This document shows, piece after piece, positions 3,635-7,553 of a stretch of 64,000 nt of DNA; position 1 is the stretch's first letter, and every line of letters begins with the position of its first letter. Both the position numbers and the translations under genes were made by a program. Origin of the DNA: a virus; IMG/VR virus record IMGVR_UViG_3300026488_000024, positions 1 through 64,000 of that record; one strand, written 5' to 3'. Under the pieces are notes generated by a model that saw nothing but the letters and a program-made list of their open reading frames with translations, ran no database searches and was not told the origin of the DNA.

Positions 3635-4378
3635 ATGAACGATATTGTTTATATAATTGCATTTGTAGGAAGAAAAGGATCCGGAAAAACAACTGCAGCA
3701 CAATATCTAGTGGAAAAATACGGTTTTCATAAAGTATCTTTTGCCAAACCTTTAAAAGATTTAGTTGCAAGTCTTGGAGTTAATAAAGAAGGTGAACTTT
3801 TAAATCCTGCTCTTAAAGATTTCTCAATGCAAAAACTAATTGATTATGTAATTACGGGTTTAAGAAATTTTGAACCAAATTTACCAATTTCTCATAGTGT
3901 AGCTTCAATTATTGCTGCAAGTATTTATCATTATTACCACTCCGATAATATTGAAGATAGAAAACGCATTGCTAGAAAACTTTTGCAATTTATCGGTACA
4001 GATGTATTTAGAGCATGGCGTTCAGATTATTGGGTAGCTAAAGCAATTGGTATGATTCAAACTCTTATAAAACAGGGAATTACTAAGATAACTATTGACG
4101 ATATGCGATTTCCAAATGAATTCCAAGCTATTTTAGAATTTTCAGATGTTTACGTAGTTAACGATAAAATCTACAATGTTTTTAGATACATTGTGGGAAT
4201 TATTGGAAAAACAGATAACGACGAGCATCCATCTGAAACTGAAGTTGATAAATTAATTCCGAAATGTCATAGTATTATTCATAATACCTATGATGAGAAA
4301 TTTTTTGAGCATCTAGATAGACTGCTTGAGGAGGTTAATATAAAAGTACGAAATGTAGAAACTGCAGATGGAGCTTAA
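3635..4378 (+). CDS. Deoxynucleoside monophosphate kinase (T4 gp1-like)
   Basis: This P-loop kinase should transfer phosphate from ATP to a dNMP, feeding triphosphates to phage DNA synthesis. A Walker A motif GRKGSGKTT is at residues 12-20, followed by the family's F-A-x-PLK element (36-41). LLQFIGTDVFR (116-126) and DDMRFPNE (155-162) are the conserved substrate-site blocks of phage dNMP kinases, and HPSE (198-201) is the late conserved motif. The length of 247 aa is normal for T4 gp1 relatives. The start has a clean AAAGGAGGT 12-13 bases upstream. The gene overlaps the next one by 11 bases. In T4 this enzyme also phosphorylates a modified nucleotide, which is of interest given the deazaguanine genes nearby, but the substrate here is not known. 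Confidence 0.85.
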   Translation: MNDIVYIIAFVGRKGSGKTTAAQYLVEKYGFHKVSFAKPLKDLVASLGVNKEGELLNPALKDFSMQKLIDYVITGLRNFEPNLPISHSVASIIAASIYHYYHSDNIEDRKRIARKLLQFIGTDVFRAWRSDYWVAKAIGMIQTLIKQGITKITIDDMRFPNEFQAILEFSDVYVVNDKIYNVFRYIVGIIGKTDNDEHPSETEVDKLIPKCHSIIHNTYDEKFFEHLDRLLEEVNIKVRNVETADGA

Positions 4379-4696: not shown

Positions 4697-5434
4697 ATGA
4701 GTGCAATTCGTACTTATGACAACATTAGTTTAGATGATGTGATTGAAAAATGGGCTCAAGATGTAGCAGAATATTGGTTTCCTTCGTATCGCGACAGGTT
4801 TATTAGTTTACTGCGCTACTCTGAATTCAGAACCTATCAATTTACCGATTACGTAAATGAAATCATGCAGTATTACTTTGAAAACTGGAGTGAAAAGCGG
4901 CTAAAAATTTATTTCTTCGAGTTTTTTAGAAAGCAAGTGTTTATTCAAACAGAAGATTCCGAAGGAAATATTCATTATATTCCAGTTCAATCATGGTGTA
5001 ATTTTACCCCAGATTATATTATTTTCCATTACAAGTATAACAAAATAACTATCCCACGAAAAACTGCAGAGGATTTAATACCAGAGGAATATGTAAAAGG
5101 TTTCCTTTATGCTCAAGCAAAAAATAATGTGAGAGTTCCAACGTTAGCATTCGGAATTCAAGAAGTATACGATGTGCTCTACAGATATTATCAAGGATTT
5201 GCTACATTACAAGATGTTGATAAAGTTTTAGCTAAACATTCAATCAACTATTTCCCTTTTCCAAATTTAATTCAACCAAAATCTAAACTCGACTGGGAAT
5301 GGATAAAGAAGTACGTCTATCATATTGCGTGGGTTAATTTATATGAAAGTGAAGCTTGTACATTTGAACGACTTGTTGAAATCGGGCCAAAATTTTACCG
5401 TCATGAAATTTACAACTTTGTATATTTACTTTAA
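4697..5434 (+). CDS. Hypothetical protein, 245 aa
   Basis: The product is soluble and rich in aromatic residues (Tyr, Phe, Trp), with a predicted mainly helical N-terminus and no recognised motif. There is no good ribosome binding site before the ATG. Instead a four-codon frame ATG-GTA-AAA-CAA-TGA (4686-4700) overlaps the start codon, which may allow re-initiation, though this is only an observation. The gene lies between the holin-like gene and the cysteine-rich CCG-domain gene. Its aromatic-rich composition matches the structural proteins of this genome. Confidence 0.8.
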   Translation: MSAIRTYDNISLDDVIEKWAQDVAEYWFPSYRDRFISLLRYSEFRTYQFTDYVNEIMQYYFENWSEKRLKIYFFEFFRKQVFIQTEDSEGNIHYIPVQSWCNFTPDYIIFHYKYNKITIPRKTAEDLIPEEYVKGFLYAQAKNNVRVPTLAFGIQEVYDVLYRYYQGFATLQDVDKVLAKHSINYFPFPNLIQPKSKLDWEWIKKYVYHIAWVNLYESEACTFERLVEIGPKFYRHEIYNFVYLL

Positions 5435-5454: not shown

Positions 5455-6135
5455 ATGAGCTGTCCCTGTAGAAAATACAGTCGTGTAAATAAACCAACTG
5501 TACAAAAAAAGCTATATGTGTATACTGGATGCTGCGGATCTTACAACAAAGACTATCTTGATGCATGTCTTAAGATGCTTTCTCGGTTTTTCAAAATTAT
5601 TATTGCAGATTTACCATGTTGCGGAATGAATACTTGGTATCTTAATCCAAATTTAACTATAGCCCGTCTAGCAAATCTAAACAAAATCATTATTGATCAC
5701 ATTCCCATTGTTAGCTTATGTAGTTCATGTACATTGAGTTTGGGATTTGTATTTGCACTTCATTATAGCGAAAAATTCGGTTTACTAAAGGATTTGCTAT
5801 CCATATGTACTCAATATTATATGCCAAATATAGTACGAGCATTAAACGCAAAAAGAACTCTATTGGTTGTAGGTATGCATAATTTATATACTTTTGGTAT
5901 TGAGTACTACAAATTTCAACAAAGTAAATTACGTGCATTCATACCAACTATTTCAATTTTTGAACTCAATACTACATTAACAACTGAAATGTATTACAAA
6001 GAACCATATAACTCTCAATACATAGAAACTCTAAAGCGAATCTCTAGACAGTATGATCTAGTTGTAACTACGGCAATTAATATCGCAAATGAATTGGATT
6101 TTACAGTTTACTTACCAACTTTATTATCTGCATAA
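5455..6135 (+). CDS. Cysteine-rich CCG-domain protein (HdrB-like)
   Basis: A YTGCCGSY block (residues 24-30) is followed by about 25 residues and then LPCCGMN (54-58), then by LCSSC (88-92). This spacing of CC...CCG...CxxC is the signature of the CCG domain found in heterodisulfide reductase subunit B, LutA and GlpC-like proteins, where paired cysteines hold an unusual iron-sulfur cluster. Extra cysteines are present at residues 3, 5, 38 and 118. Only one full CCG repeat is visible, whereas HdrB has two. The C-terminal half (Tyr- and Ile-rich) lacks the second set. The gene has a weak GAAGGTGG site and is directly upstream of the GAT/QueC-like pair. In a phage it may be a redox partner or a metal-binding protein. 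The family match is from pattern alone. Confidence 0.6.
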   Translation: MSCPCRKYSRVNKPTVQKKLYVYTGCCGSYNKDYLDACLKMLSRFFKIIIADLPCCGMNTWYLNPNLTIARLANLNKIIIDHIPIVSLCSSCTLSLGFVFALHYSEKFGLLKDLLSICTQYYMPNIVRALNAKRTLLVVGMHNLYTFGIEYYKFQQSKLRAFIPTISIFELNTTLTTEMYYKEPYNSQYIETLKRISRQYDLVVTTAINIANELDFTVYLPTLLSA

Positions 6136-6172
6136 ATAATTCATGACAAAAAACATAAAGGAGGTATTTTTT

Positions 6173-6814
6173 ATGTGTACTACTATCATGTATCACGGAA
6201 AGCTTTCACTATTTAAGCAAATCATTCCTACGCCAGAAAAATTAAAACGTATTTGGTTTTATCGCGGATATGATGCTTTGGGACATCTATTTATCAACTA
6301 TAGCACAAATTTTGCAAAAAAATACGTTGGTCATTTTTGGGATAAAGAGCATAGTTCAGAAAATATAAAGGAGGTTTTTGAGAAAGCAGTTTACAATATT
6401 TACGAGCGAAAGCATAAAGGCGATCCCGAAGTACTAATTGCTTTATATGCACGTGCAATTCCGGAAACTGAACCAATCGATACCCATTTACCTTTAATTC
6501 TAGAAATTCAACCACTGGATTTACGCGACTATATTTTTTTACATCATGGTATAGTATACGAGTTTGATAACGTAAAGGTAACTGACGAAATAATCGATAC
6601 TCAACTTGTTGCATTTTATATCGACTCGATGTCTGAAAAACTTGAAGTATCTGAAATAGCAAGACATCTAAAAGAGAAAACCAAAGGAATGTCTCTATAC
6701 ATTCTCTACCACAAAATGCTAAAGAAAATTATCGTCGTGGAAGCAGGGTTAAAAGCATTTACTTATCAGTTTAAGGATGGAATGCTCGTATCAAATTTTG
6801 CACTCTTTGTATAA
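6173..6814 (+). CDS. Class II (Ntn) glutamine amidotransferase-like protein
   Basis: The start is taken at the ATG at 6173 because AAAGGAGGT lies just upstream; an in-frame ATG at 6143 has none. This choice puts Cys at position 2 (MCTTIMYHG), the N-terminal nucleophile of class II glutamine amidotransferases after Met removal. ARAIPETEP (93-101) resembles the conserved Arg-containing loop, FLHHGIVY (122-129) the HNG oxyanion block, and IDTQLVAFY (141-149) the late Asp block. Asn of HNG is His here, which is unusual. The domain would release ammonia from glutamine for a partner enzyme. The next gene is a QueC-like ATP-pyrophosphatase, so the pair resembles a split GAT-QueC. The 213-aa length fits a stand-alone amidotransferase domain. 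Confidence 0.65.
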   Translation: MCTTIMYHGKLSLFKQIIPTPEKLKRIWFYRGYDALGHLFINYSTNFAKKYVGHFWDKEHSSENIKEVFEKAVYNIYERKHKGDPEVLIALYARAIPETEPIDTHLPLILEIQPLDLRDYIFLHHGIVYEFDNVKVTDEIIDTQLVAFYIDSMSEKLEVSEIARHLKEKTKGMSLYILYHKMLKKIIVVEAGLKAFTYQFKDGMLVSNFALFV

Positions 6815-6845
6815 AAAAGAAGAAGGAAAAAGGAGGTATATAAAA

Positions 6846-7553
6846 ATGCTATATCGAAATCTTACAGTACAAGTAGATCCTATTGAAAGAAAATTTTATC
6901 TTGAGGGAAATGTAAACTGTAAAACTGCACTTGTTTTATACTCCTCAGGATTGGAATCAATCACCAACGTCTATCTTTTATTACGCTTGAATATAAAACC
7001 ATACTTGCTTCACTTTACATACAATCATTTGGCCGCAGAAATTGAACTCATAAAAACAAGAGAGCTTGCAAAAAAATTAAATCTACCGCTTTACATCATT
7101 GAAATGCCTGAATTGGCACCTATCTCTAATTTTGATGAAGAAGAAGCAGAATCTAGTTCACATTACATTCCTGTTCGTAATACGCTTTTTATTACTTACG
7201 CTCTAAAAATTGCTGAAGAAAATCAATTGGACGCAGTAGTATTGGGAGCAAATTTATCAGAATCTATGACTTATCCTGATAACTCCTACCCATATATATT
7301 TGGATTCGGATATGTTGCAAATTACGCAACGCAATTTCCAAATACTGTGACTATCTTAACCCCTTTAATAAACCTAACGAAAACATATCTCGTAAAATTG
7401 GGCGAACTACTAAATGTAGATTATTCAATGTCAAATTCATGCTATTACCCAAATAAAAATGGAGAACCATGTAATAAGTGTGGTTCATGTATTTTACGAA
7501 ACATAGCATTTGAGCGTGCAGAAGAACTCGGGAGGTTTACACTGACTTTCTAG
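6846..7553 (+). CDS. QueC-like ATP-pyrophosphatase (7-deazaguanine pathway)
   Basis: The start is the ATG at 6846, preceded by AAAGGAGGTA; the frame extends 23 codons further upstream, but that part overlaps the previous gene. The PP-loop reads LYSSGLES (31-38), where QueC has SGGxDS. YIPVRNTLF (107-115), TYPDNSYPYIFGF (142-154) and the zinc site C199, C209, C212, C215 ending CGSCILRNIAF all match QueC closely. QueC turns carboxy-deazaguanine into preQ0. When joined to a glutamine amidotransferase (GAT-QueC), the known product in Crenarchaeota and phage 9g is archaeosine or deoxyarchaeosine. The D-to-E change in the PP-loop is notable. The likely role is DNA guanine modification against restriction. 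The DNA transglycosylase DpdA is not in this window. Confidence 0.8.
   Translation: MLYRNLTVQVDPIERKFYLEGNVNCKTALVLYSSGLESITNVYLLLRLNIKPYLLHFTYNHLAAEIELIKTRELAKKLNLPLYIIEMPELAPISNFDEEEAESSSHYIPVRNTLFITYALKIAEENQLDAVVLGANLSESMTYPDNSYPYIFGFGYVANYATQFPNTVTILTPLINLTKTYLVKLGELLNVDYSMSNSCYYPNKNGEPCNKCGSCILRNIAFERAEELGRFTLTF

Follow-up and report, generated by a model that had tools for sequence, protein, structure and literature searches.

The question raised by this locus is whether two neighbouring viral genes, one resembling a class II glutamine amidotransferase (GAT) and the other the PP-loop ATPase QueC, together constitute a divided GAT-QueC protein, and whether their product is destined for the DNA of the virus itself. 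The window, meaning the whole stretch of DNA that was analysed, comprises bases 1-64,000 of virus record G000 (80,039 bases). A second record (G001; 106,051 bases) overlaps the first, at 99.5-99.8% identity in the pieces compared, and gains 47,965 bases to the left; a third (G003; 77,831 bases), matching G001 at 100% over 2,005 tested bases, gains a further 43,995. The assembled phage totals ~172 kb and is incomplete, with both ends open; its right end and the left end of G003 had no match in any further contig. Because the contigs bear two sample numbers, it represents a composite of near-identical strains.

By Pfam, the phage encodes a T4-type terminase, a fusion of UDG with polymerase B, and several RNA polymerase proteins. 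Judged from these genes, the source, an uncultivated virus, is a large tailed bacterial phage, with two beta-prime-like and two beta-like proteins (L021:15008-18058 and L022:1728-7499, by Pfam) indicating a multi-subunit RNA polymerase of its own. The polymerase fusion (L023:548-3124) joins a family B DNA polymerase to a uracil-DNA glycosylase domain. At L010:10274-12569, a resolvase-like gene is followed by a TnpB-like gene (Cas12f1-like TNB domain, 1.2e-14), and the two probably form an IS607-type element.

Two adjacent genes and their assignment

Table 1. Features of the locus and of the assembled phage. Positions are those of the window unless another sequence is named.
Feature	Position	Strand	Details
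Neighbour, deoxynucleoside monophosphate kinase (DNMK)	3635..4378	+	phrog_139 1.2e-31; Pfam DNMK 4.7e-11; 1.8 kb before pair
Neighbour, 245-aa protein	4697..5434	+	no usable family match (Pfam, PHROGs, NCBIfam)
Neighbour, 226-aa cysteine-rich protein	5455..6135	+	C26/C27, C55/C56, C89xxC92; weak GlpC match
Shine-Dalgarno AAAGGAGGT of GAT gene	6157..6165	+	
GAT half (P0001, 213 aa), predicted class II (Ntn) glutamine amidotransferase	6173..6814	+	Cys2 nucleophile, R94, H124-H125-G126 replacing HNG, D142
Shine-Dalgarno AAAGGAGGT of QueC gene	6829..6837	+	
QueC half (P0002, 235 aa), predicted PP-loop ATPase	6846..7553	+	SSGLES 33-38, R111/N112, YPDN 143-146, K179, zinc C199/C209/C212/C215
FolE	G001:39279-39890		Pfam 2.2e-53; ~14 kb left of pair
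QueD	G001:20381-21073		PTPS 8.2e-20; TIGR03367 4.1e-17 (under cut-off); ~33 kb left of pair
Radical-SAM gene, the only one found in the phage	G001:14713-15411		
HGPRT homologue	L012:5020-5538		TIGR01203 1.9e-28 (under cut-off); ~2.4-2.9 kb left of window start

Both ORFs are intact, and lie in different frames with a stop in between, separated by a 31-base gap (6815-6845). The longest ORF of the GAT gene begins at 6143, yet the start behind AAAGGAGGT is the better one; that of the QueC gene begins at 6777, and its start too was placed behind AAAGGAGGT. A preliminary description had pointed to a GAT-like gene with Cys2, ARAIPETEP, HHG and IDTQ, a QueC-like gene 31 bases on with a full zinc site, and a Shine-Dalgarno sequence of its own for each, all of which were found. 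GAT-QueC proteins are one polypeptide; here there are two separate ORFs, likewise in two further virus records, in which P0001 and P0002 are 100% identical to those of the window, with 7 and 3 base differences over the 1381-base stretch. As the same arrangement recurs in these records, the split is not the assembly error of a single one. The cysteine-rich protein encoded just 5' of the GAT gene matches GlpC at E 4.5e-6 over residues 12-96, far below the cut-off, and perhaps contains an iron-sulfur CCG-type domain; the structure model of P0003 (pLDDT 35.5) was of no use.

P0002 matches Pfam QueC at 1.3e-38 and ThiI at 1.6e-5, and matches the QueC family TIGR00364 at 2.7e-28, yet under its cut-off. 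Matches at E 1e-5 or better number 248 among 50,697 phage records. Annotations such as archaeosine synthase or amidotransferase/QueC are frequent among the best of them, and all five that were retrieved for checking (9g, Megan, PSTCR7, R7M and V07) proved to be fusions. Identity to GAT-QueC proteins is about 28-34%. Three comparisons support placing P0002 nearer to these fusions than to canonical QueC. Firstly, twelve columns separate 78 fused proteins (70 viral and 8 genomic, after leaving out six of 76 viral ones with a short GAT part and one duplicate of nine genomic ones) from 10 canonical QueC proteins, and P0002 has the fused residue at seven, the canonical residue at one and neither at four. 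Both N146 (Asn in 78/78 fused vs Cys in 10/10 canonical proteins, giving YPDN vs YPDC) and E139 (Glu in 78/78 vs Asp in 10/10) are of the fused type. Secondly, the median BLAST score is 101 bits to fused proteins vs 61 to canonical QueC. Thirdly, a 64-row tree sets P0002 apart from the 10 canonical proteins (support 100/99); the 53 fused rows likewise exclude it (96/87), and its branch is so long (5.17) that its exact place is unsure. Two scores are contrary to this placement: a small canonical-phage profile scored 115.1 bits on P0002 vs 107.7 for a small fused profile, and PHROGs put the QueC-like phrog_1550 (4.8e-37) above phrog_10428 (1.7e-26), the best-matching family of phage 9g GAT-QueC.

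The GAT half has 15-24% identity to GAT-QueC proteins. P0001 falls below the cut-off of Pfam GATase_6 (E 0.0063; 17 bits vs 27), had no match in PHROGs or NCBIfam, and gave nothing useful by phage tblastn; its sole PDB sequence match, a designed protein at E 0.71, is meaningless. Because single-sequence searches were of so little use, the assignment rests on a lineage profile and on the fold. With a profile built from 70 GAT domains of viral GAT-QueC fusions, P0001 came first among the 1187 stop-to-stop ORFs of the phage, which formed the search set for GAT and DpdA profiles, at E 1.6e-4, the next being 1.7. Smaller GAT profiles were weak on P0001 (E 0.063 and 0.0087), and each again ranked it first. 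An AlphaFold2 model with 54 GAT domains of GAT-QueC as its alignment (pLDDT 84, pTM 0.84) agrees with the solved folds of GlmS (1jxa; Z 14.5, rmsd 3.4 over 180) and EgtC (4zfl; Z 14.3, rmsd 3.0 over 172), and Foldseek matched it to GFAT-1 at E 2.6e-6. The best viral fold match (E 1.6e-8) was a 487-aa Pantoea phage Vid5 protein named 7-cyano-7-deazaguanine synthase. As the alignment held GAT-QueC domains, this agreement is partly built in, and P0001 is supported as, rather than independently found to be, a divergent class II GAT domain of the GAT-QueC lineage. The earlier proposals that the first gene belongs among class II amidotransferases, and that the pair is a split or altered GAT-QueC, are in this way supported, for the GAT half by the lineage profile and fold, and for the QueC half by diagnostic residues, BLAST and tree.

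Aligned to the 78 fused relatives, P0001 keeps Cys2, R94, A95, P97, E100, P114, G126, D142 and G172, with 22 of 40 conserved GAT columns differing. P0002 keeps R111, N112, Y143, D145, N146, K179, C199, Y200, C209, C212 and C215, with 35 of 79 conserved QueC columns differing. By alignment, its Y59, R111, Y143 and Y200 would be the counterparts of Y35, R99, Y131 and Y189 of E. coli QueC, where alanine is reported to abolish function (PMC13329287). Two key positions had been described as changed. The first, HHG for HNG (N125H), is indeed odd, with Asn in 78/78 fused relatives; so is D37E in the PP-loop, where 78/78 have Asp. The SS of SSGLES is less so: S33, G35, L36 and S38 are usual, and the second G of SGGxDS is Ala in 10/78 and Ser, as at S34, in 4/78. 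As the Asp-to-Glu and HNG-to-HHG changes fall at invariant positions, either activity, or both, could have been changed or abolished. It is conjectural that the substituted residues remain functional, with Glu preserving an acidic side chain in the PP-loop and His possibly supplying a hydrogen bond to the oxyanion hole.

Fused relatives and the origin of the split

Scanning viral contigs with an alignment gave 124 relatives, and the results here cover 80 of them. Fusions account for 76 of these 80 loci; of the remaining four, two are records of this same phage, and two (L058 and L072) are QueC fragments cut off by the end of a contig. All nine genome loci returned were likewise fused; they came from Thermoproteota, Marsarchaeota, Thaumarchaeota/Nitrososphaerota, two Anaerolinea and one Paraburkholderia. 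The earlier statement named GAT-QueC proteins of Crenarchaeota and phage 9g as single fusions; another split arrangement, with separate GAT-like and queC genes, does occur in nt-1/KVP40-type Vibrio phages.

The ends of the two proteins bear on where the division lies. The C-terminus of P0001 falls short of two columns conserved in 76/78 and 77/78 relatives. P0002 has 32 residues before its PP-loop, where the distance from PYS to SGG in 77 fusions has a median of 34 (range 26-56), and nine canonical phage QueC proteins have only 7-20 residues. Since P0001 ends early and the head of P0002 is of fusion-like size, a cut inside the GAT tail is suggested. Against this, the sequence of the P0002 head matched fusion linkers no better than shuffled heads did (48 of 300 shuffles scored as high), and the tree puts P0002 on its long branch beyond the fused proteins. 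The pair is a candidate for either the fission of a fused ancestor or a survivor from before the fusion.

Among titles and abstracts of open-licence PMC text, there was no publication on separately encoded GAT and QueC. The GAT-QueC family and its role in phages are established, and split queC and GAT genes with a different ancestry are also on record. Within the reach of the searches, the novelty lies in members of the GAT-QueC lineage proper being encoded by two genes, with substitutions at two positions that are otherwise invariant, in a phage predicted to have its own RNA polymerase.

Pathway partners and the search for a DNA transglycosylase

The preliminary description had called for a search for the partners of a deazaguanine pathway, and FolE and QueD were found; QueE and DpdA were not recognised in the ~172 kb of this incomplete phage. 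Profile matches among the 80 viral loci number 66 for FolE, 65 for QueD, 65 for QueE and 58 for DpdA1. In relatives, the pathway genes lie mostly inside 6-kb flanks; FolE and QueD of this phage are scattered.

The radical-SAM gene gave mixed scores. NCBIfam favours NrdG2 (3.6e-22) vs QueE (9.5e-9), the reverse of a control, 9g QueE (QueE 1.6e-26 vs NrdG2 7.3e-13); PHROGs place the QueE-like phrog_2076 (1.1e-11) above the NrdG phrog_626 (1.9e-6), and a QueE profile matches at 1.6e-12. The gene has CHN where 9g QueE has CDT, and is flanked by the two pieces of a split NrdD; for these reasons it is called NrdG. The anaerobic ribonucleotide reductase NrdD is itself encoded by two genes here (516 + 171 aa), with the NrdG2-like activase gene between them (L010:13055-15951).

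The search for DpdA covered the types for which a test was available. Neither phrog_887 nor phrog_7068, the DpdA families, was matched in two records (G003 not included); over the 1187 ORFs, a DpdA1 profile reached at best E 0.18, HVTV-1 gp69 at best E 3.2, and the single sequence of nt-1 ORF390, a probable DpdA2, at best E 0.016 (L009:15204-15857). The only match of a DSG-type regular expression was an RNA polymerase gene, and a second expression carries no weight, having missed every positive control. The silence of Pfam TGT (PF01702) is uninformative, because three phages with an actual or possible DpdA (9g, CP21 and Cellulophaga phi38:2) also escaped it.

DpdA1 is lacking at 22 of the 80 loci. 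Two of these belong to this phage, and several of the 15 others are cut by contig ends; the remaining five have a second DpdA-like family (phrog_19058/phrog_20335) near GAT-QueC, at L108:3027-3959, L051:4387-5151, L117:2650-3423, L047:4382-5191 and L107:4383-5144. CPT_0056 of Campylobacter phage CP220 (L026:4675-5451) belongs to the same family, which in a profile-profile comparison including CP220 matched DpdA1 with a probability of 92.6. The family is possibly the DpdA3 that Cui et al. reportedly named in 2023, and which is said to allow full replacement. With CPT_0056 in this family, CP220 was dropped as an example of a phage lacking DpdA; its DNA is 100% dADG (Crippen 2019, cited in PMC8306585).

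The HGPRT homologue was tried as a DpdA-like protein. It matched the family of the five loci at E 3e-4 as a single sequence and at 1.7e-37 in an iterated search; family profiles built without it gave E 0.022 and 0.018, as their sole match in the phage. The resemblance is spurious, the protein fitting HGPRT at 1.9e-28 and being without the family's C-terminal part.

Proposed function and comparison with known systems

The fold, family and lineage of the pair are supported; its function we infer. We lean, a little beyond an even chance, towards a split, divergent GAT-QueC pair making a preQ0 or archaeosine-type base, whose likeliest use would be as a deazaguanine in phage DNA that hinders host restriction. 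The pathway would begin with the phage's own FolE and QueD. The N-terminal cysteine of the GAT half would release ammonia from glutamine, to be handed to the QueC half within a putative two-protein complex. With ATP, the QueC half would convert 7-carboxy-7-deazaguanine (CDG) to preQ0, and/or combine preQ0 with ammonia, yielding the formamidine (archaeosine, G+) base. The host may supply QueE and the DNA transglycosylase; otherwise these may be encoded where the phage sequence is still missing, or have escaped recognition. Modification of its DNA by this phage is plausible: the modified base shields viral DNA from host restriction enzymes in relatives, and gat-queC of 9g, together with dpdA, placed dG+ in E. 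coli DNA, with the source (PMC6884629) leaving unsettled whether the conversion of preQ0 precedes or follows insertion.

The changed residues may instead mark a new reaction, in which another substrate is amidated, or a protein is modified as in Cap9/QatC, in place of deazaguanine synthesis. D37E and N125H are each absent from the 78 relatives, the conserved columns of both halves have changed as extensively as described above, and QueC relatives have reportedly been repurposed before (PMC13329287). However, the substrate-pocket and zinc residues and the YPDN of GAT-QueC are kept, and FolE and QueD are present, making a new reaction unlikely, even as the foremost of the alternatives.

Next in rank, and also unlikely, is that the pair, with FolE and QueD, raises the supply of preQ0 or queuosine for host tRNA during infection, leaving phage DNA unmodified. 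No DpdA of the testable types was found, and Hutinet et al. propose this role for phages that have preQ0 or G+ genes and no DpdA (PMC6884629). For such a purpose a canonical QueC would suffice, whereas the pair resembles the GAT-QueC lineage, which is accompanied by DpdA in 58 of 80 viral loci and by the DpdA-like family in five more; moreover, the phage sequence is incomplete.

There is a slim chance that the genes are decaying remnants without activity, as changes at invariant residues and a long branch might suggest; but both frames are open behind strong Shine-Dalgarno sites, most active-site residues are kept, and the two proteins are identical in all three records despite the few base differences.

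Poorest of all is a DpdA-independent route, very improbable although the phage lacks a recognised DpdA and encodes an HGPRT homologue that could form a deazaguanine nucleotide, a reductase (split NrdD with the NrdG2-like gene) and the nearby DNMK to bring this to a dNTP, and a polymerase to insert it: the phage is incomplete, fully modified CP220 has the DpdA-like CPT_0056, such that this route is unneeded for full replacement, and HGPRT, ribonucleotide reductase and DNMK are ordinary nucleotide-salvage genes of large phages. In its strictest form, a phage without any DpdA would insert the base made by its split GAT-QueC as a nucleotide, through HGPRT, the anaerobic reductase, DNMK and polymerase, with the altered residues adapted to this, which is hardly to be expected. 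We know of no earlier replication-coupled 7-deazaguanine DNA, of which it would, if true, be the first case.

The favoured reading, that of a split GAT-QueC pair, extends the lineage to a phage with, as predicted, its own multi-subunit RNA polymerase. In a single-chain GAT-QueC, the route of ammonia from one half to the other is concealed, as is the half that decides between preQ0 and G+ as product; in a natural two-gene version, each half can be made, changed and assayed alone.

The closest comparison is with phage GAT-QueC of Enterobacteria phage 9g (gp06) and Pantoea phage Vid5. These have the same two domains, the four zinc cysteines, the GAT signature ARAxPxTE / QP / HxG / ID and the QueC signature of YPDN and NLxE, and 9g likewise has FolE and QueD in the same phage. 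The present pair differs from both in being two genes, and in having HHG for HNG and SSGLES for SGGxDS, with scattered pathway genes and no recognised QueE or DpdA. Archaeal GAT-QueC has the same domain pair, but is fused at each genome locus returned; the crenarchaeal protein is reported to make G+ and to act on tRNA (PMC5485725). Canonical QueC, such as that of E. coli, shares with P0002 the PP-loop, a VPxRN-type loop, YPD and the zinc site, but has YPDC, Asp in place of E139 and, in phages, a much shorter stretch before SGG.

The nt-1/KVP40-type Vibrio phages are a second case, brought out by this comparison, of separate GAT-like and queC genes. In nt-1 (VPFG_00172/00173), queC and a stand-alone putative GAT are adjacent, likewise as two genes; however, the queC gene is the first of the two, its product clusters with canonical QueC in the tree, and the GAT has HNG and gave no phmmer match to P0001. 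This GAT gene, ORF392 (L029:6420-7028), encodes 202 aa, including MCG and HNG, shares one base with the end of the canonical queC, and is annotated as hypothetical; its motifs read as those of a class II GAT. Relatives of ORF392 occur in 51 of 50,697 phage records, Vibrio phages accounting for 49, and among the 25 matches listed, mostly annotated as hypothetical, 20 also touch an annotated queC or exsB. The DNA of nt-1 is reported to contain dPreQ0, dADG and a little dG+, which the authors ascribe to an ArcS (PMC6884629).
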